Source: Alphaproteobacteria bacterium
Lineage (GTDB): Bacteria > Pseudomonadota > Alphaproteobacteria > UBA7985 > JAUIBT01
DNA length: 64,000 bases
Direction: 5' to 3'
Assembly: GCA_030428255.1 (NCBI GenBank)
Contig: JAUIBT010000014.1
Span: 1 to 64,000, forward strand
The first letter of the stretch is position 1; the number at the start of each line of letters is the position of its first letter. Below are positions 2,890 through 13,142 of this stretch, piece by piece. A program made the position numbers and the translations under genes. The notes under the pieces were generated by a model. That model had not been told where the DNA came from and made no database searches. It saw only the letters and a program-made list of their open reading frames with translations.

Positions 2890-3002
2890 CTAGTCCCTTG
2901 TTTTTGGCCACAAATCCGCAGCGAACTCAGCCAAGTTCCTTTGATGGTCTTGTTGGGCCAAGGGCAAAGCTGCCTTAGGACAGATAAGGCGCAAGGGGGC
3001 TG
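2890..3002 (+). pseudogene. FHA/CdiA remnant, 3' tail beyond the IS
   Basis: If the insertion sequence and one CTAG copy are removed, the frame at 1440-1452 continues as DEALVPCFWPQIRSELSQV and runs to a TGA at 3000-3002. This tail overlaps the 3' end of the oppositely oriented DUF442 gene. Whether it is the original C-terminus or chance open frame cannot be decided. Confidence 0.4.
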
Positions 3003-3382
3003 ACATCGAAGCCTGCGTTGCGACAGCAAGCCAATATTTCGTCCGCGCTGGCCTCGCCCTTTTTGCTCAAGGCCCACAGCATGGACGCCCGCATGCCAGA
3101 GCGGCAAAAGGCCAAAACCTTGCCATCACAGTCTTGGGTCACTTGCTTGAAGTTGGCCACATCGGCAGGCGTGACCTGCCCCGGAACCACGGGAATATGA
3201 TGGGCGCTCAAGCCACGCGCTTCCGCTTCTGCTTTCAGCGTCTCAAAGCTCATTTGGTTGGGTTCTTCGCCGTCTGGGCGGTGAGAAATAATGGTGGTAA
3301 TGCCCGCAGCCTTGGCGGTGTCGAGGTGATCCAAAGTGATCTGGGGAGCCACCTGTACGGTATCGTCGAGGGATTTAAACAT
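2975..3382 (-). CDS. DUF442 (TIGR01244-type) sulfur transferase / phosphatase-like protein
   Basis: A 135-residue protein of the DUF442 family, a small PTP/rhodanese-like fold. The active loop is AFCRSGMRA near residue 95, with the catalytic Cys and the Arg of a CRSGxR loop. In many proteobacteria this domain is fused to, or encoded beside, a persulfide dioxygenase of the Blh/ETHE1 type, where it is thought to handle sulfane sulfur; here the two are separate genes of one cluster. The ATG at 3382 is chosen because the homologous region starts there (MFKSLDDTVQVAPQ); the 16 extra codons upstream look unconserved. It follows the two YeeE/YedE-type genes on the same strand and may be their third cistron, although 160 bp separate them. 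Confidence 0.8.
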   Translation of the reverse strand: MFKSLDDTVQVAPQITLDHLDTAKAAGITTIISHRPDGEEPNQMSFETLKAEAEARGLSAHHIPVVPGQVTPADVANFKQVTQDCDGKVLAFCRSGMRASMLWALSKKGEASADEILACCRNAGFDVSPLAPYLS

Positions 3383-3543
3383 AAGTAGATGTCCGTTGGA
3401 ATGAGTGAGAGGGCGCCGGGCGCACTGCAATCTGAGGGCCGCGCGAGCGGCCGCTGCGTTGTCGCGATTAGGTCGCCAACGTCGTGTGTGTTCGGGTGAT
3501 GGATTGGAGCAATCCCTAGCGAGGCGACAGGTCGCGTGCTGCC

Positions 3544-4011
3544 TTAGGACTTCATCAAGCGGCCGACAAACATGCCAGCCAGCATCATGCCAAGGAAGCC
3601 AAAGGCCAACAGGCCGTTGCCTGCTAGCAAGGTGAGCGCTGGCCCCGGACAGATACCGGTCAGTGCCCAGCCCAAGCCAAAGGCGGCGGCACCCGGCAAG
3701 ATTTTGCGATCTATGACGCCGCAGTTGGTCGGCAGCTCAAAGCTTTCGGTTAGCAGGGGCTTCAAGCGCCGTTGGACGAACCAAAACCCAGGGACGCCAA
3801 CCGCGATGGCGCCGCCCATAACGAAAGCCAAGCTGGGGTCCCAAGGACCAAAGATGTCCAAGAAGTTGCGAACCTTGGCGGGGTTCGACATACCGGATAT
3901 GATGAGGCCAAGGCCAAAGACCAAACCCACAGCCAGGCCCAGGGCAAGTGTTAGAGCAAGTGTGAGAGCTTGGGAGGAGGCTGGCGAAACCGTAGAATTA
4001 GCGCTGCGCAT
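3544..4011 (-). CDS. YeeE/YedE-family (DUF6691) sulfur transporter half, second gene
   Basis: About 155 residues with four hydrophobic segments and the family signature GWALTGICPGPALT (about 115-128). In this family two half-size membrane proteins together make a thiosulfate or sulfane-sulfur channel, and the conserved Cys in GICPGPA is expected to carry sulfur along the pore. The ATG at 4011 starts two bases after the stop of the upstream half (TAA-G-ATG), so the two are co-translated. The 3' end reads TCCTAAGGCAGC, the same 13-bp end (GTCCTAAGGCAGC on this strand) as the DUF442 gene. Confidence 0.85.
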   Translation of the reverse strand: MRSANSTVSPASSQALTLALTLALGLAVGLVFGLGLIISGMSNPAKVRNFLDIFGPWDPSLAFVMGGAIAVGVPGFWFVQRRLKPLLTESFELPTNCGVIDRKILPGAAAFGLGWALTGICPGPALTLLAGNGLLAFGFLGMMLAGMFVGRLMKS

Positions 4012-4012
4012 C

Positions 4013-4456
4013 TTAGATAAATCCTCCGAAGACAAGGCGAACCAGAGCTGCGGTGCCAAAGGCCACCGCCATGAAGGTAAGGGTTGCGCCTAGCGAGCGC
4101 AGTGACAGGCGTGAAAGGCCGCACACGCCGTGGCCCGATGTACAGCCATTGCCAAGGACCGATCCCAGGCCAACGAAGAAGGCGCCGATCAACAGCACCG
4201 GTGTGCTGGAGACGAACTGCGCCGTCACGCCCGATCCGGTCGTGAGCTGCCAGATCAGCGGCGCGACAACCACGCCAACGATGAAGGCCAGGGTCCATTG
4301 CTGGTTCCAGCCCGACGCACGCGGCGGCAACAGGCGCGATACAAGACCCGAAACGCCCATAATGCGGCCATAGAACAGAGCGGTCATCACAGCGGACAAA
4401 CCGATAAGGATACCTCCGAACAAGGAAGCGAGGGGTGTGAAGCTGGTCTCTATCAT
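4013..4456 (-). CDS. YeeE/YedE-family sulfur transporter half, first gene
   Basis: A 147-residue membrane protein with four to five hydrophobic segments and the diagnostic GNGCTSGHGVCGLSRLS motif (about 103-119), whose Cys residues are the sulfur-relay positions in YeeE-type thiosulfate transporters. It is the first gene of the minus-strand unit and is coupled to the second half-transporter. An ATTC-N8-GAAT palindrome lies a few bases upstream of its start, suggesting repression by a persulfide-sensing SqrR/BigR-type regulator. Gene order (half transporters, DUF442, divergent persulfide dioxygenase) matches known sulfide-detoxification regulons. Confidence 0.88.
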   Translation of the reverse strand: MIETSFTPLASLFGGILIGLSAVMTALFYGRIMGVSGLVSRLLPPRASGWNQQWTLAFIVGVVVAPLIWQLTTGSGVTAQFVSSTPVLLIGAFFVGLGSVLGNGCTSGHGVCGLSRLSLRSLGATLTFMAVAFGTAALVRLVFGGFI

Positions 4457-4461
4457 TGTGT

Positions 4462-4477
4462 ATTCGCATGTTTGAAT
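4462..4477. promoter_or_regulatory. ATTC-N8-GAAT operator, YeeE side
   Basis: ATTCGCATGTTTGAAT is a spaced palindrome of the form reported for the persulfide-responsive ArsR-family repressors SqrR/BigR. It lies 6 bp upstream of the YeeE/YedE start. A second site of exactly the same form is at 4989. The regulator is inferred; no bigR/sqrR gene is in this cluster. Confidence 0.6.
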
Positions 4478-4988
4478 ATGAATTGATCTGCCGCAAATAA
4501 ACAGACCGCGACGTTATTTCAAGGGCATACCGACAGAAAAATGTAGTGGCTTAAGAAGGGGCGGTGCTTGAGCGCCGCAAATCTCCCCAAACCACAAACC
4601 CTTTAAGGCAAGCCCCATGGCGCGCAAAGGATCGCAATCATATGCCGCGCGCCATCGCGCCGATCGCCCAAGCTGCAATCCTGACAGGCGTGGCTCATAA
4701 ATGAGCGTTCGCGCGCAGAGCGTCAAGCATGCTGCGCGCCTTGCAGTGGTTGTCGTGAGCCAGGGAGCCGTCGTGCAGCGGCCCTGCTGTTTGGGCTGCT
4801 GCGGCGTAAGCCTCTATTTACGCGCGAAACGGCCATGGTTTGAAGCGGCTGCTTCGCGCTGTCACATCTTTGCGATCACTACTATGTGTTCATTATGGCG
4901 CGCGGGCATACGGGTTAGCAGAGGGCGGGGCAAAAAATCACTCTCGTCCCCTTGTAACCCAATTCACGAAGCTCTATCTGGCTAACAT
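4478..4988. other. Long divergent intergenic region, no gene recognised
   Basis: Five hundred bases between two divergent sulfur genes. Open frames on both strands (4514-4726, 4701-4985) have no recognisable domain, poor starts and arginine/cysteine-rich composition typical of shadow frames. It may hold promoters or a decayed gene; nothing more can be supported. Confidence 0.4.
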
Positions 4989-5004
4989 ATTCAGTTATTC
5001 GAAT
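4989..5004. promoter_or_regulatory. ATTC-N8-GAAT operator, persulfide dioxygenase side
   Basis: ATTCAGTTATTCGAAT is the second copy of the spaced palindrome, 136 bp upstream of the dioxygenase start. Both ends of the divergent region therefore carry the same operator-like site, which points to joint control of both directions by one repressor. Confidence 0.6.
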
Positions 5005-5139
5005 GTAACAGTCTGATCTTCGCTCTGGCTCCTGTCTGTGCTAGGCTCCATGCCAAGGGGGGGCGGCTCTCGAGCCTGCGAAGACACAGACCTTCATTCG
5101 CGTACTTCGACCTCAGTTCTTTATGTATGGAGACCTTCC

Positions 5140-6024
5140 ATGGATTATCCCGTCAACATGGCCATCGTGCCTGACGTAAAAGCCTTCTTCGACGATGACT
5201 CGAACACGATTTCCTATGTCGTATCCGATCCGGCAACCAAGAAAGCGGCGGTCATCGATTCGGTGATGGATTTCGACTATGCCGCCGGGCGAACCAGCTT
5301 TGAAAGTGCGGACGCCATCATAGCCTATGTGCAGGACCAGGGCTTGACCGTTGATTGGTTGATCGAAACCCATGCGCACGCAGATCACCTGTCGGCTGCA
5401 CCCTATCTGCAGAACAAGTTGGGCGGCAAGATCGGCATTGGTCGCGAGATCATTACGGTGCAAAACGTCTTCGGCAAGATTTTCAACGAAGGCACCGAAT
5501 TCCAGCGCGACGGCAGCCAATTTGACCGCCTGTTTGACGATGGAGACACCTACCAGATTGGCAACATGACCGCCTTTGCCATGCACACACCCGGCCACAC
5601 CCCAGCCGACATGGTGCATGTTGTCGGCAACGCGGCCTTTGTCGGCGATACCCTGTTCATGCCCGATGGCGGCACCGCGCGCGCCGACTTCCCCGGTGGG
5701 GATGCGGGTATCTTGTACGACAGCATCCAGCGCTTGCTGGATTTACCCGAAGATATGCGCCTGTTCATGTGCCACGATTACGGCCCCAACGGTCGCGATA
5801 TCCGCTGGGAAACTACGGTCGGTGAAGAGAAAGAGCACAACATTCACGTTGGCAAGAACGCGGATCGCCAGACCTTCGTCAAACTGCGCAGCGAGCGCGA
5901 CGCCACCTTGTCCATGCCGCGGTTGATCGTGCCCTCGATCCAGGTGAACACCCGCGCAGGCAAGCTGCCCAAAGAAGAGGACAATGGTACAGCCTATTTG
6001 AAGGTGCCGTTGAACACGCTCTAG
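5140..6024 (+). CDS. Persulfide dioxygenase, ETHE1/Blh-type metallo-beta-lactamase fold
   Basis: A 294-residue metallo-beta-lactamase-fold protein. The metal motif THAHADH is at residues 77-83, HTPGHTPADM near 147 supplies a further ligand, and CHDYGPNGRD occurs near 205. This arrangement is that of ETHE1-like persulfide dioxygenases, which oxidise glutathione persulfide to sulfite and glutathione using mononuclear iron in the cytoplasm. The ATG at 5140 follows GGAGACC and gives the normal family length; an upstream in-frame start at 5038 would add an unconserved 34 residues. The ATTC-N8-GAAT operator upstream and the divergent YeeE/DUF442 genes support a sulfide-detoxification role. Confidence 0.88.
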   Translation: MDYPVNMAIVPDVKAFFDDDSNTISYVVSDPATKKAAVIDSVMDFDYAAGRTSFESADAIIAYVQDQGLTVDWLIETHAHADHLSAAPYLQNKLGGKIGIGREIITVQNVFGKIFNEGTEFQRDGSQFDRLFDDGDTYQIGNMTAFAMHTPGHTPADMVHVVGNAAFVGDTLFMPDGGTARADFPGGDAGILYDSIQRLLDLPEDMRLFMCHDYGPNGRDIRWETTVGEEKEHNIHVGKNADRQTFVKLRSERDATLSMPRLIVPSIQVNTRAGKLPKEEDNGTAYLKVPLNTL

Positions 6025-6223
6025 ATTTTGGGCCTTCTGCTCGCTCTCACCATTGGCCGCGCCCCGGGTTGGGCGTCACGGGAGCCGCTTAGATTGAGAT
6101 CTTGGCGGCCTTCCAAGTGCTGCGCTTCAAGTCCCTGGTCGGCCTCCGCCGGGCGTGGGCTTTTTGGCCCTGGTCGTGGCGAGTGGCAAATTAAAAACAT
6201 AATCGACACTCTGGACATCCCCC

Positions 6224-7936
6224 GTGCCTTCTTTCTTGCGCTCTTACTTCCCCATTCTCGATTGGTCGCGCTCATATAACTCGACGACCTTCACCAACGA
6301 TCTGGTGGCGGCCATCATCGTCACCATCATGCTGATCCCCCAGAGTCTGGCCTACGCCTTGTTGGCGGGGCTGCCTGCCGAGGTCGGCCTCTATGCCTCT
6401 ATCTTGCCGCTGGTGGCCTATGCGGTATTTGGCACCAGCCGGGCGCTGGCCGTAGGGCCTGTGGCGGTGGTCTCCTTGATGACAGCCGCCGCGATTGCCA
6501 ACCTTGGCATCACCGATCCCGGTCACATGGTGGTGGCGGCCATCACGCTGGCCTTTATCTCGGGGCTCATGCTGATGCTGATGGGCGTTTTGAAGCTGGG
6601 CTTCTTGGCGAATTTCCTCAGCCACCCCGTGATTGCGGGCTTCATCACCGCCTCGGGCATGATCATTGCCGCCAGCCAGGTCAAGCACCTCTTGGGCGTC
6701 CAGGCCCATGGCCACAATCTTTATGAGCTGCTGATCTCGCTGGTTCGCGAGCTGCCTAACACTTCGCTGTGGACCTTGGCCGTTGGCTTGCCGGCGCTGG
6801 TGTTTTTGTTCTGGGTGCGCAAGAGCCTCAAGCCGAGCCTGATCAAGCTGGGCTTGCCTGCGCGGGCTGCGGATATCATGGCGAAGGCAGGTCCGGTGGC
6901 CGCGGTGGCTGCGACCACCATTGCAACGGCGGTCTTCCAGCTTGACACCAAAGGGGTGGCGACCGTGGGCTCCGTGCCGCAAGGTATCCCCCCGCTGAGC
7001 TTGCCCAGCGGAGATTGGGGGCTCTGGACCTCGCTTGCGGGCTCGGCTTTCCTGATTTCGGTCATTGGCTTTGTGGAGTCGGTGTCGGTGGCCCAGACCT
7101 TGGCCGCCAAGCGCCGCCAGCGGATCGACCCGGATCAGGAGCTCGTCGGCTTGGGGGCTTCGAACATCGCCTCGGGCCTGTCTGGTGGCTATCCCGTCAC
7201 TGGCGGCTTTGCGCGCTCGGTGGTCAACTTCGATGCTGGTGCAGAGACCCCGGCTGCCGGAGCCTTCACCGCCATCGGCATCGGTCTTGCGACCCTGTTC
7301 TTGACGCCGCTGTTGTTCTTTTTACCGAAGGCGACCTTGGCGGCGACCATCATCGTTGCGGTGCTGTCCTTGGTAGACTTCTCTGTTCTGGCCCGAACCT
7401 GGCGTTATTCGAAAGCTGATTTCCTGGCGGTTTTCGCGACGATCTTGGTCACCTTGGGCTTTGGCGTGGAGTTGGGCGTCAGCGCGGGCGTGGGTCTGTC
7501 GATCGCTCTGTTCTTGTACAAGACCAGCCGCCCGCACATGGCGGTGGTCGGCCAAGTCGGCGATACCGAGCATTTCCGCAACGTCGAGCGCCACTCGGTC
7601 GTGACCTGCCCCAAGGTCATATCGCTGCGGGTGGATCGCAGCCTCTATTTCGCCAATGCGCGCGCGCTTGAGAATAAGATCTATGACCTGGTTGCCCGCC
7701 AACGCGAGGCCAAGCATGTGGTTCTCATGTGCTCGGCGGTCAATGAGATCGACGCCTCGGCGCTGGAATCCCTGGAGGCGATCAATCAGCGCTTGGCAGA
7801 CTTCGGGGTCAAGTTTCACCTGTCGGAGGTCAAGGGGCCGGTGATGGATCGCTTGCGCCGCAGCCATTTTTTGCAGCAGTTGACGGGCCGGGTCTTCTTG
7901 TCCCAGTTTGACGCCTTTGCAGCTTTGAGGGCATAG
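6224..7936 (+). CDS. SulP-family anion (sulfate) permease with STAS domain
   Basis: A 570-residue SLC26/SulP transporter. The N-terminal core has the signature ending IPQSLAYALLAGLPAEVGLY (about 38-57), then 10-12 hydrophobic segments including the FVESVSVAQTLAAKRRQ region (about 286-302). A C-terminal STAS domain follows from about residue 450 (VISLRVDRSLYFANA, VNEIDASALESLE). Members import sulfate, bicarbonate or other anions; the substrate cannot be read from sequence. It starts with GTG at 6224 with a weak GGA 8 bases upstream. It lies 200 bp downstream of the persulfide dioxygenase in the same orientation, so sulfate or sulfite traffic linked to sulfide oxidation is a reasonable inference. 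Confidence 0.88.
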   Translation: MPSFLRSYFPILDWSRSYNSTTFTNDLVAAIIVTIMLIPQSLAYALLAGLPAEVGLYASILPLVAYAVFGTSRALAVGPVAVVSLMTAAAIANLGITDPGHMVVAAITLAFISGLMLMLMGVLKLGFLANFLSHPVIAGFITASGMIIAASQVKHLLGVQAHGHNLYELLISLVRELPNTSLWTLAVGLPALVFLFWVRKSLKPSLIKLGLPARAADIMAKAGPVAAVAATTIATAVFQLDTKGVATVGSVPQGIPPLSLPSGDWGLWTSLAGSAFLISVIGFVESVSVAQTLAAKRRQRIDPDQELVGLGASNIASGLSGGYPVTGGFARSVVNFDAGAETPAAGAFTAIGIGLATLFLTPLLFFLPKATLAATIIVAVLSLVDFSVLARTWRYSKADFLAVFATILVTLGFGVELGVSAGVGLSIALFLYKTSRPHMAVVGQVGDTEHFRNVERHSVVTCPKVISLRVDRSLYFANARALENKIYDLVARQREAKHVVLMCSAVNEIDASALESLEAINQRLADFGVKFHLSEVKGPVMDRLRRSHFLQQLTGRVFLSQFDAFAALRA

Positions 7937-7943
7937 AGCATGT

Positions 7944-8046
7944 GTCGTTGAATTGCATTCACTCAACACGGTCTAACTATTTGATTTTAAGGCAAATGTG
8001 CCTTTCCGATCTTTGGCACAATCGGGGGCGATTGCTCGGGCTTTGC
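7944..8046 (+). repeat. Structured repeat family 1, copy 4, long form
   Basis: The 5' part TGTCGTTGAATTGCAT (from 7944) matches TTTCGTTGAATTGCAT at 27304. The 3' part GGCAAATGTGCC...CAATCG-GGGG-CGATTG-CTCGGGCTTTGC (7992-8046) matches 27352-27407. It sits immediately downstream of the SulP gene. The inner stem is 8019-8034. Confidence 0.7.
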
Positions 8047-8141
8047 TCTATCGCAAACTGCAGACGCGCGGGCTCACGCCAGAGCAGGTTCACGGCACAG
8101 CGGGGGCGCCAGTTAGCGATACTCTGGCTTGTTGAGGGGAG

Positions 8142-8390
8142 TTACTGCGAGCCAGCCGGCACGCAGAAGGGGTTAACGCCCGCGGTTTGGGGGCGGCAAG
8201 GCACTGGAGGGTTCTGCCCGTTGGAGCCGTTGTTTGAACCGCCGCCGCCATCGCCGCTTCCGACCACTTGCGCGCTGGCTTGGCCAGCGCCGCCGAGGGT
8301 CGCAACAACCGGCAAGGAGAACAAGGCGCCTCCAGCAAGAACCGTTGCCATTAAGGAGCGACGGCGTGCGCTAATTTCTTGTTCAGTCAT
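8142..8390 (-). CDS. Small exported Gly/Asn-rich peptide of unknown function (82 aa)
   Basis: The N-terminus has twin arginines followed by a hydrophobic stretch (RRRSLMATVLAGGALFSLP) and an ASAQ cleavage-like site near residue 40, suggesting Tat or Sec export. The mature part is only about 40 residues: a GSGDGGGGSNNGSNG linker and a tail with PPVPCRPQ and PFCVPAG, giving two Cys nine residues apart. A strong ribosome site, GGAGGA, precedes the ATG at 8390. It is divergent from a LicD-like gene and close to PqqD-like and cytidylyltransferase genes, so it could be the substrate of a modification system. No known family is recognised. Confident that it is a gene; its role is open. Confidence 0.65.
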   Translation of the reverse strand: MTEQEISARRRSLMATVLAGGALFSLPVVATLGGAGQASAQVVGSGDGGGGSNNGSNGQNPPVPCRPQTAGVNPFCVPAGSQ

Positions 8391-8450
8391 GCTCTACTTC
8401 CTCCAGATTTTAACCTGACATCCTGGGTGATCGGTGCCAGACTGGACGCT

Positions 8451-9098
8451 ATGCAATCTGAACTTTACAACCCTGAAGTAGAAAGAATAGACCATTATGG
8501 ACGTCCATCCAAATGGTTTGTTGACTACCCGACTGACTACCTTGATGACCTGGCTGCATCGCTCAAAGAAATCGAGCTTGTCTTGCAGTTGGAGTTCGGC
8601 GTCAGCATGTACCTGACCTGGGGCAGTCTGTTGGGGGCGATCCGCGAGGGGGATTTTATTCCTCACGACTTCGACATCGACGTTTCTTATGTCAGTCGCG
8701 CGCGCAGTCCGGTTGGGATTCAAAAGGAATTTCATCGCATTCAGGAACACTTTCGGCGCTTTAAGCGCCTCTTGAAGCCCGCGCCGTCCGGCAAATTTAT
8801 GATCGGCGGTGCCCTGGCACCCAGCGGACTTTATGAGCACGGAATAGAGATTTGGACCAGCTTTGTTGTCGGCCAAGACTTCTACGCCTACCCCACAATT
8901 CCGGGCTGGTTGCCTGCGCGCGCTGTTCGTCCCTTTCGTACCGCCTATCTGCGTGGTCTGCCCTTCTCGGTTCCCAATCAAGCTGAGCTGTTCCTTGACC
9001 GCTACCTGGGCAGCGATTGGCGCAGCCCCAAACTTCCCAAGGATCATACCGAAAAGACCGGGCGCTACGCCTGCTTTGACTTCCTCTATCCCGATTGA
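8451..9098 (+). CDS. LicD/fukutin-like nucleotidyltransferase-fold protein
   Basis: About 215 residues. The LicD-like core is at roughly residues 49-75: YLTWGSLLGAIREGDFIPHD followed by FDIDVSY. The Gly-Ser pair and the hD-hD acidic motif match the NTase-fold phosphotransferases that move phosphocholine or similar groups from a CDP-activated donor onto glycans or other acceptors. The ATG at 8451 is favoured over the open frame beginning at 8379, because the latter runs into the divergent peptide gene's ribosome site. The 3' end overlaps the convergent PqqD-like gene by 13 bp. With the nearby cytidylyltransferase it forms a plausible CDP-donor synthesis and transfer pair. Confidence 0.7.
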   Translation: MQSELYNPEVERIDHYGRPSKWFVDYPTDYLDDLAASLKEIELVLQLEFGVSMYLTWGSLLGAIREGDFIPHDFDIDVSYVSRARSPVGIQKEFHRIQEHFRRFKRLLKPAPSGKFMIGGALAPSGLYEHGIEIWTSFVVGQDFYAYPTIPGWLPARAVRPFRTAYLRGLPFSVPNQAELFLDRYLGSDWRSPKLPKDHTEKTGRYACFDFLYPD

Positions 9099-9364
9099 AG
9101 CAAGCCTCTGTCCGTTAGCAATTGCAAAGCCCGATTGACCTCGTCAGAGGGCGTTTGCTCTAAGCCGAATTCAGCGCAGACCGCGCGTTCGATTTCCCGG
9201 ATCGTCCGGCTGCCGTCGCAAAGCAACAGCACCACGGCCGCCGATTGATTTAGGTAGTGCAGATGACCTTTGGCGTCCTGGACCTTTAGGCCGCCCTTGG
9301 AGGGTGTCATGGGCAAGGTGAGATCGGCAAAGGGACGCTCGGGGATCGGTGTATCTTGGGGCAT
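9086..9364 (-). CDS. PqqD-like (RRE-fold) protein
   Basis: A 92-residue PqqD-family protein. After a lead of about 35 residues come the family's typical features: HYLNQSAAVVLLLCDGSRTI, then a helix and winged segment (EIERAVCAEFGL, ALQLLTDRGLL). PqqD-like domains bind leader peptides of ribosomally made, modified peptides. The ATG at 9364 is chosen; the frame is open to a TTG at 9418, but that would run through a repeated palindromic sequence better read as promoter. Its neighbours are a cytidylyltransferase upstream and a convergent LicD-like gene; a short exported peptide is 700 bp away. Confidence 0.75.
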   Translation of the reverse strand: MPQDTPIPERPFADLTLPMTPSKGGLKVQDAKGHLHYLNQSAAVVLLLCDGSRTIREIERAVCAEFGLEQTPSDEVNRALQLLTDRGLLQSG

Positions 9365-9400
9365 ATCTTTCGCTCGCTTTGGGGCTACCAACCTGGGGCT

Positions 9401-9425
9401 CTCAATTTGAGCGCTCAATTTGAGC
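9401..9425. promoter_or_regulatory. Direct repeat of CTCAATTTGAGC upstream of the PqqD-like gene
   Basis: CTCAATTTGAGC occurs at 9401-9412 and again at 9414-9425. Each copy is close to a palindrome (CTCAA-TTTGAG). The pair lies in the 78-bp gap between the cytidylyltransferase stop and the PqqD-like ATG, where an operator would be expected. Confidence 0.4.
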
Positions 9426-9442
9426 TCTCAAGCCAAACAAAT

Positions 9443-9853
9443 CTAGAGATCCTCGCGCGACAGGACGCGGTCGATGATGGTCGATGTGTTGATGCCGGGC
9501 TGATAGGGCAGGCGCTTGAAGATGCCGTGCGCAATCGCGACGCGATAGAATTCCTCCCAGCCCTGGCCAGCGTAGACCACAAGGCCTATGTCGTGTTCGT
9601 CCAGGAAGGCCTCGGTCAAATAAGCGCCAAACATGGTCGGGCAAGCCAGAACCGTGTCCGCCAAGCCCGTGGCTCGCACCGCATCCATGCGCTCGTCAAG
9701 GGTCAAGATGGGACGGCGCTTATAAGCCGCTGCGTCTTCGTCGGGCGTGACGCCAACAATGAGCCGGTCGCCCAGGCTGCGCGCTTTGCGCAAGAGCCGC
9801 AGATGATTGGCATGCAGAAGGTCAAAGACCCCTTCGGCGAATACCGTCGTCAC
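9443..9853 (-). CDS. Cytidylyltransferase-like (TagD/LicC-type) nucleotidyltransferase
   Basis: A 136-residue HxGH-superfamily protein. The nucleotide motif GVFDLLHANHLRLL (residues 8-21) contains HANH in place of the usual HxGH, and the C-terminal INTSTIIDRV matches the ISTS motif. The family makes CDP- or ADP-activated compounds such as CDP-glycerol, CDP-ethanolamine or CDP-choline; the substrate cannot be read here. The start is GTG at 9853, since no other start lies before an upstream in-frame stop. It is 33 bp downstream of fixJ on the same strand and upstream of the PqqD-like gene. The Gly-to-Asn change in the HxGH motif (HANH) deserves attention. Confidence 0.75.
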   Translation of the reverse strand: MTTVFAEGVFDLLHANHLRLLRKARSLGDRLIVGVTPDEDAAAYKRRPILTLDERMDAVRATGLADTVLACPTMFGAYLTEAFLDEHDIGLVVYAGQGWEEFYRVAIAHGIFKRLPYQPGINTSTIIDRVLSREDL

Positions 9854-9886
9854 TGTTCGTCTAGCACAGCAATTGGGCGGCCCACG

Positions 9887-11762: not shown

Positions 11763-13142
11763 TCAAACTGCATTGGAAAACCGCTCGGTCACGGGATTGT
11801 AGTAACGGTCGATGCGCGAGGCCACCACGCGGGCCACAAAGCCATCGTGCTGGGTCAGTGCCAGGCCTTGGTCGTCCAGGCGGCACAAGCTCGACAGCTC
11901 GCCCCGGGCCAGATCGTCAAGGCGCGCAATCAAGGGTTGAGCCTCAGCGCCAAAGGCCTCCGTCAGACCTGAATACGAAAGCTTCATATCGCACATGAGG
12001 CGCTCGATGGCCCAGCCGTAGAGGCGGTCATTAGCGCTCAGCGGCAGGCCGCGGCTGCTGGCAAGTTGGCCCGCGTCGATCGCACGGGTGTAGGCATCGG
12101 TGGCCGGGTTGTTTTGCACATAGCCCTGTGCGAAGCGGCTGATGGCCGAAGGACCGAGTCCGATCAGGGTCGGGCAGGGATCGGTGGTATAGCCCTGAAA
12201 ATTGCGATAGACGCGACCGGCGCGCGCCGCTTGCGCCAGGCTGTCGCCGGGCAAAGCAAAGTGATCGATACCAATGGCCTGGTAGCCTGTATCAATCAAG
12301 CGTTGGCGGGCAAGGCGCGCTTCGGCCAGGCGCTCTTCGGGCGAGGGCAGGGTCTCTTCTGGGATCAAGCGCTGATGCTTCTTGACCCAAGGCACATGCG
12401 CATAGCCGAACAAAGCGATGCGCTCCGGGCGCAGGCTGATGATTTGCTCCAATGTAGCGGCAAAGCGGTCCTGGCTTTGGTATGGCAGGCCATAGAGCGC
12501 GTCGATATTGACCGAGGGGATGCCCAGGCTACGCAGGTGATCAATGACCGCTTTGGTGTCTTCAAAGCTTTGCGGGCGATTGATGGCCGTTTGCACAAGC
12601 GGATCAAAATCTTGGACGCCAAGGCTGGCGCGGTTGAGGCCCAGCGCCACCAGGCCGTCGTAACTGGCCGGTGTCATGTCCACAGGGTCAAGCTCGACGC
12701 TGATTTCGGCGCCGTCATCAAAGTCAAAGTGGCGATCCAGGCAAGCACGAAGGGCGCGCATATCCTCAGCGCGCAGCAAGCTGGGTGAGCCGCCGCCCAG
12801 GTGCAACCGGGCGATGCGCGGCTTGCGATTATCGTTGGCGGCTTGCTGTCGCCCCAGATGTTTGGCGACCAAAGCGATTTCTTTATACAGCACCTGAAGG
12901 TAAGCCGCCACCGGCTCATAGCGCCGTGTCTGCTTGGTCGTGCAGCCACAAAACCAGCACAAGCGGTCGCAATAGGGGATGTGGATATAGAGCGACAGCG
13001 CTTGATCGGACGGCACTTGCGCCAGCCAGGCGGCATGCGCAGCCGGATCAAAGGCAGCTTGAAACTCCGTGGCTGGAGGGTAACTGGTATAGCGGGGCAC
13101 GGCTTCATGGATAAAGGCCGTTGCCTGGTTAGCGCTTTGCAT
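11763..13142 (-). CDS. hemN: Oxygen-independent coproporphyrinogen III oxidase
   Basis: A 459-residue radical SAM enzyme of normal HemN length. The cluster motif CDRLCWFCGC (about 56-65) has the CxxxCxxC spacing plus the extra Cys typical of HemN, and LHLGGGSPSLL (about 113-123) is the SAM-binding Gly motif. It converts coproporphyrinogen III to protoporphyrinogen IX without oxygen, supplying haem for the cbb3 oxidase under microaerobic growth. An FNR/FixK-type box (TTGATCTTGCTCAA) lies 112 bp upstream. The gene sits between fixL and an Hsp20-like gene on the same strand. Confidence 0.93.
   Translation of the reverse strand: MQSANQATAFIHEAVPRYTSYPPATEFQAAFDPAAHAAWLAQVPSDQALSLYIHIPYCDRLCWFCGCTTKQTRRYEPVAAYLQVLYKEIALVAKHLGRQQAANDNRKPRIARLHLGGGSPSLLRAEDMRALRACLDRHFDFDDGAEISVELDPVDMTPASYDGLVALGLNRASLGVQDFDPLVQTAINRPQSFEDTKAVIDHLRSLGIPSVNIDALYGLPYQSQDRFAATLEQIISLRPERIALFGYAHVPWVKKHQRLIPEETLPSPEERLAEARLARQRLIDTGYQAIGIDHFALPGDSLAQAARAGRVYRNFQGYTTDPCPTLIGLGPSAISRFAQGYVQNNPATDAYTRAIDAGQLASSRGLPLSANDRLYGWAIERLMCDMKLSYSGLTEAFGAEAQPLIARLDDLARGELSSLCRLDDQGLALTQHDGFVARVVASRIDRYYNPVTERFSNAV

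Follow-up and report, generated by a model that had tools for sequence, protein, structure and literature searches.

The known substrates of LicD/FKRP-type enzymes are glycans and lipids. In the ISPD/FKRP system, ribitol phosphate is transferred by FKRP from CDP-ribitol to its acceptor (PMC4873967), a glycan on the protein alpha-dystroglycan, and the LicC/LicD system serves the attachment of phosphocholine. Phosphate-linked tailoring of ribosomal peptides is also established, as shown by the lasso peptides, in which the peptide receives a phosphate-linked sugar through the joint action of an HPr-kinase homologue and a nucleotidyltransferase (pseudomycoidin; reviewed in PMC8498205).

Another system of similar plan is found in the HPr-rel-A loci of Alphaproteobacteria, which involve the families TIGR04352 (HprK_rel_A), TIGR04353 (PqqD_rel_X) and PF14907 (NTP_transf_5) and which we collected by a PqqD_rel_X search. 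All 10 uncut loci are four-gene cassettes encoding an exported small Cys protein, PqqD, the HprK_rel_A kinase and NTP_transf_5. The exported protein, which carries an RR signal, adjoins or lies near PqqD_rel_X in 11 of the 11 loci (L070-L080; e.g. L075:2679-5584). Its signal has the form RRxLLK..APVIxTL..AxA and its mature part contains Cys; the three proteins tested had no match among the models of Pfam or NCBIfam. An HMM of the peptide signal regained 9 of 10 members in leave-one-out runs and additionally the eleventh, untrained locus, and no peptide of this type was present at 40 other PqqD loci.

Here, we describe a compact four-gene block in a 64,000-bp stretch of alphaproteobacterial DNA (hereafter, the window). 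Like the HPr-rel-A cassettes, it combines a small RR-signal Cys peptide, a stand-alone PqqD and two enzymes of phosphate/nucleotide chemistry. However, the two enzymes are LicD/FKRP-like and PCYT-like rather than an HprK-like kinase and NTP_transf_5, the strands are mixed whereas the cassette genes run in one direction, and the peptide encoded in the block shows no significant relationship to those of HPr-rel-A. An assignment of the locus to HPr-rel-A itself was ruled out by the peptide HMM (-1.2 bits, unrecognised), by the score of its PqqD under the TIGR04353 cut-off, and by the lack of both the HprK_rel_A kinase and NTP_transf_5 in the block. By analogy with HPr-rel-A, we carry over the idea that a PqqD, an exported Cys peptide and phosphate chemistry may form a working combination.

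Gene organization and genomic setting

The original prediction placed four unusual small genes in this part of the window. All four ORFs were confirmed there, and three of the products could be assigned to families by Pfam matches over the curated cut-offs (LicD, 5e-6; PqqD, 4.2e-8; CTP_transf_like, 1.3e-12; Table 1). Codon-position GC supported these three genes as coding, and was uninformative for the Gly/Pro/Asn-rich peptide (0.66/0.60/0.65).

Table 1. Coordinates and identification of the features of the four-gene block
Feature	Position in window	Strand	Basis
Exported peptide (predicted), 82 aa	8142..8390	-	ORF and ribosome site GGAGGAAG; family-less
LicD/FKRP-like CDP-dependent phosphotransferase (putative)	8451..9098	+	Pfam LicD; FKRP profile and model
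PqqD-like (RRE-like) protein, 92 aa	9086..9364	-	Pfam PqqD; RRE-like model
Cytidylyltransferase, PCYT/TagD superfamily	9443..9853	-	Pfam CTP_transf_like; PDB profile matches
Two 13-bp direct repeats / 15-bp palindrome	9398..9423		GCTCTCAATTTGA GCGCTCAATTTGA; palindrome GCTCTCAATTTGAGCGCTCAATTTGA; between cytidylyltransferase and PqqD
Island with exactly four genes	7938..9885		blastn comparison with the two congeners at syntenic loci

Two of the start codons deserve comment. The LicD ORF is open from the listed TTG at 8379, a position that overlaps with the 5' end of the peptide gene, and ATG 8451 (215 aa) is the more likely start; that of PqqD is probably ATG 9364 rather than TTG 9418, where the ORF opens. 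Since the strands are mixed, only the LicD gene being on the plus strand, the four genes do not form one operon. The likely transcription units are cytidylyltransferase-PqqD, LicD alone, and the peptide gene alone and divergent from LicD. The cytidylyltransferase gene starts 33 bp downstream of the end of fixJ, and its unit is possibly transcribed by read-through from fixLJ. A promoter scan of the four-gene block yielded nothing exceeding chance; the repeat/palindrome is a possible operator.

In a blastn comparison with the syntenic loci of two congeners (L268 and L269), similarity ended at 7936/7937 and restarted at 9886/9894. The island thus defined is flanked on one side by the end of the SulP gene and on the other by that of fixJ, and it has no homology to the two congeners. 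In both of them, the gene order is fixL-fixJ-response regulator-BLH phosphatase-like-YeeE-type-MBL-SulP, so that a response regulator gene follows fixJ where the window has the island. In the window, the sulfur-gene block at 2975-7937, which encodes the BLH phosphatase-like protein, YeeE-type transporters, the MBL protein and the SulP transporter, is inverted relative to the congeners, and the island is situated at the new junction. A DDE transposase gene (1631-2821) flanks the inverted block at its opposite end, and still closer to the window start is a filamentous-haemagglutinin-type repeat ORF (350-937).

Because the island consists of exactly four genes, is absent from both congeners and is located at a rearrangement junction, the four genes appear to move or survive as a unit. 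They behave as one accessory island, which was either acquired here, probably horizontally, or lost in the two congeners.

The LicD/FKRP-like transferase and its cytidylyltransferase

Both its sequence and its predicted structure identify the LicD-like protein as a putative LicD/FKRP-type CDP-dependent phosphotransferase. When a profile built with its homologues was compared with PDB, FKRP alone was a convincing match (2.6e-23). The AlphaFold model, whose pLDDT averages 71 overall and 91-96 per 10-residue block in much of its core, likewise gave FKRP complexes with Mg, CMP and CDP-ribitol as the top Foldseek matches (E 5e-10). The family motif GxLLGAxR...DxDxD is present as GSLLGAIREGDFIPHDFDID at ~8622-8681, and in the alignment the invariant G and R and the three metal-site Asp (DxDxD) are kept, with the unusual residues HDFDID where WDDDID is the rule. 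FKRP is thus the closest solved structure, and the likeness to the ISPD/FKRP system extends to the predicted CDP-dependent transfer of a phospho-alcohol. The window protein differs from FKRP, which acts on a protein-borne glycan, in comprising the catalytic domain only, and the cytidylyltransferase belongs to another family than ISPD. A relationship between LicD and the NTP_transf_5 proteins of HPr-rel-A was considered and found no support in a profile comparison (prob 0.4).

The cytidylyltransferase is most like the ethanolamine- and choline-phosphate cytidylyltransferases (PCYT2/PCYT1) in sequence, its best profile matches in PDB being 3elb, an ethanolamine-phosphate cytidylyltransferase (1e-21), and choline-phosphate cytidylyltransferase (1e-13). 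TagD, which would point to glycerol phosphate, was rejected as the nearest relative (1e-7 vs 1e-21). The motifs of the PCYT/TagD family are present as HANH (HxxH type) and as GINTST in place of GISTT (GxSTT type), and the catalytic invariant positions are kept in the alignment. The original comparison with LicC/LicD holds as a functional analogy and fails as homology, since the enzyme encoded here belongs to the TagD/PCYT superfamily and is not of the LicC type. The best match in the genomes of 41 relatives reached 1.8e-10, and among the matches listed the best were LicD-adjacent genes of SAR202 (5.5e-22 and 2.8e-20; 38-39% identity).

We scanned ~85,000 species with a LicD alignment and took the best 80 LicD loci. 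Among the matches listed, 12 of 90 LicD loci have a cytidylyltransferase of the PCYT/TagD type no more than 200 bp away, and these include, again among the matches listed, several of the closest LicD homologues, from Alteromonadaceae (L109), a gammaproteobacterium (L110), SAR202 (L111 and L114), Pseudomonas (L117) and Kordiimonadaceae (L118). An alphaproteobacterial locus (L129) has the pair as well. LicD and the cytidylyltransferase are therefore a recurrent pair. This adjacency, together with the FKRP and PCYT2 relationships, supports the earlier suggestion that the cytidylyltransferase makes, and the LicD-like protein uses, a CDP-activated group. The pairs with clear context are in surface-polysaccharide loci, as indicated by sulfotransferases (L109), a flippase (L110) and dTDP-rhamnose genes (L117). 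As in these loci and in the LicC/LicD phosphocholine system, a putative CDP-alcohol maker adjoins a LicD-family transferase in the window; in contrast to them, the block has no glycan genes among the neighbours examined and contains a PqqD and an exported peptide.

LicD genes were also seen in four loci of SAR202/Dehalococcoidia (L111, L113, L114 and L115), whose LicD proteins are extended by an additional C-terminal region. In L111 and L114, the neighbouring cytidylyltransferase is PCYT2-like and the loci are outside obvious polysaccharide loci.

A PqqD-like protein and a predicted exported peptide

In this genome, the PqqD-like protein is the sole PqqD to exceed the cut-off. It scored below the cut-offs of both TIGR03859 and TIGR04353 (PqqD_rel_X; 25.2 bits, 2.5e-5, against a cut-off of 35 bits). 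A single-sequence model of low confidence (pLDDT 68) has an RRE-like fold, of the kind expected to grip a leader peptide, leader-bound RiPP proteins being the best structural matches. Foremost were complexes of the lasso-peptide B1 protein TbiB1 with its leader, together with MePqqD (E ~0.01-0.02, prob 1.00), and cyclodehydratase RREs matched as well (top set, E ~0.01-0.05, prob 0.99-1.00). The model thus fits a possible peptide-binding role. As noted from the start, no enzyme of a known RiPP class accompanies it: the block contains no radical SAM maturase, YcaO, LanM/LanB/C or lasso B/C, and the radical SAM protein encoded 2 kb away (11763-13142) is of the HemN type, not a RiPP enzyme. The four-gene set is also without a protease or a dedicated exporter.

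The 82-residue peptide and its strong ribosome site were confirmed, and the expected signal, linker and Cys tail are present as an RRRSLM n-region followed by a hydrophobic stretch and ASA, a Gly/Ser/Asn linker and a tail with two Cys. Cleavage is predicted after ASA, at about residue 40, which would leave a mature peptide of ~42 residues with two Cys (QVVGSGDGGGGSNNGSNGQNPPVPCRPQTAGVNPFCVPAGSQ). The signal suggests export via Tat rather than Sec. No Pfam or NCBIfam family matched the peptide. No relative was found, 10 other genomes of the order giving weak unrelated matches only. A regular expression, RR...PVxxTL...AxA, matches the window peptide and the HPr-rel-A peptides and otherwise noise; it was, however, written with knowledge of the window peptide, and since the HMM, made without that peptide, failed to recognise it, we rejected the match as a sign of homology. 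What ties the peptide to the enzymes is its position alone.

Possible function of the four genes

We tentatively propose that the block is a PqqD-guided cassette that decorates a peptide of Tat-type export with a phospho-alcohol, perhaps phosphoethanolamine or phosphocholine; we regard this reading as possible rather than probable. The cytidylyltransferase would form a CDP-alcohol, most likely CDP-ethanolamine or CDP-choline to judge from its relatives, and the LicD/FKRP-like enzyme would move the phospho-alcohol from CDP onto an acceptor hydroxyl, so that a phosphodiester results. The N-terminal part of the precursor would be held by the PqqD-like protein, which would offer the peptide to the transferase. 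The finished peptide would then leave the cytoplasm by its twin-arginine-like signal, which would allow modification before export. In this scheme, we infer the peptide as acceptor, its binding by PqqD and the identity of the alcohol. Attachment of a phospho-group to an exported peptide, as originally predicted, is supported in part: the enzyme pair, the RRE-like fold and the island speak for it; the single full set, the polysaccharide setting of the pairs with clear context elsewhere, the separate transcription units and the lack of a protease or dedicated exporter speak against it.

Conserved co-occurrence of the four families, which the original prediction had made its test, was not observed: no second full set turned up among the sampled genomes of the class or those of the order, among the best 80 LicD loci, or in plasmids or viral contigs. 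An HMM search detected no PqqD near LicD in the best 80 LicD loci or in 17 class-level LicD loci, and no relative of LicD or the cytidylyltransferase lies near 63 other PqqD loci. Among the 385 class genomes there was no LicD orthologue, one lone distant relative being matched, and no PqqD orthologue; the ORFs listed around the single weak PqqD match include neither LicD nor the cytidylyltransferase. PqqD was absent from the 10 other genomes of the order, and a literature search for PqqD with LicD or HPr-rel-A found no paper in the collection searched. Given the co-occurrence at the level of the pair and the boundaries of the island, the idea of peptide tagging stays alive despite the single full set.

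The main rival is surface decoration, in which the LicD-like protein and the cytidylyltransferase add phosphoethanolamine or phosphocholine (or glycerol phosphate) to a surface glycan or lipid, with the PqqD and the peptide as unrelated passengers. The close pairs in glycan-type contexts without PqqD (L109, L110 and L117), the separate strand of LicD and the single full set all agree with it. However, neither the island nor the neighbours examined contain a glycosyltransferase, flippase or polymerase gene, the PqqD gene is located between the two enzyme genes, the block holds exactly four genes, and the only over-cut-off PqqD of the genome would be left partnerless; we consider surface decoration a serious but somewhat doubtful explanation.

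It is improbable, in our judgement, that the four genes are a decaying or non-functional import, brought in by rearrangement near an IS transposase and not cooperating. The transposase close to the far end of the inversion, the single occurrence and the odd residues in the LicD-like protein (HDFDID) and the cytidylyltransferase (GINTST) would suit such an origin, but all four frames are open, the enzymes show codon bias, the alignment-invariant catalytic positions are kept and a strong ribosome site precedes the peptide gene. That the PqqD and the peptide are an HPr-rel-A or lasso-like remnant with its enzymes elsewhere in the genome, around which LicD and the cytidylyltransferase were later inserted, is decidedly improbable: the PqqD is weakly HPr-rel-A-like (profile comparison, 4.9e-5) and the peptide shares the general plan of the HPr-rel-A peptides, but the genome has no PqqD_rel_X match at E 0.001, the HPr-rel-A HMM misses the peptide, and none of the set occurs in any congener.

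Returning to the tagging of the peptide, the phosphorylated and phosphoglycosylated lasso peptides (paeninodin, pseudomycoidin) would share with it a PqqD-type leader binder and the phosphate-linked tailoring of a ribosomal peptide. The window differs in having no lasso cyclase or B2 protease, and its phosphate would derive from a CDP-alcohol, whereas that of the lasso peptides derives from ATP via the HprK homologue. It seems rather unlikely that the locus represents a new type of tailoring, namely a PqqD-guided PCYT-like and FKRP/LicD-like pathway by which an exported twin-Cys peptide is joined to an alcohol (ethanolamine, choline or a polyol) through a phosphodiester. If it did, a peptide-directed LicD/FKRP enzyme would extend ribosomal-peptide chemistry to phosphodiester-linked alcohols, and FKRP-like catalysis could be studied in a simple bacterial model with a short substrate. 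For HPr-rel-A, the recognisable exported Cys peptide as a fourth member makes this uncharacterised system testable.
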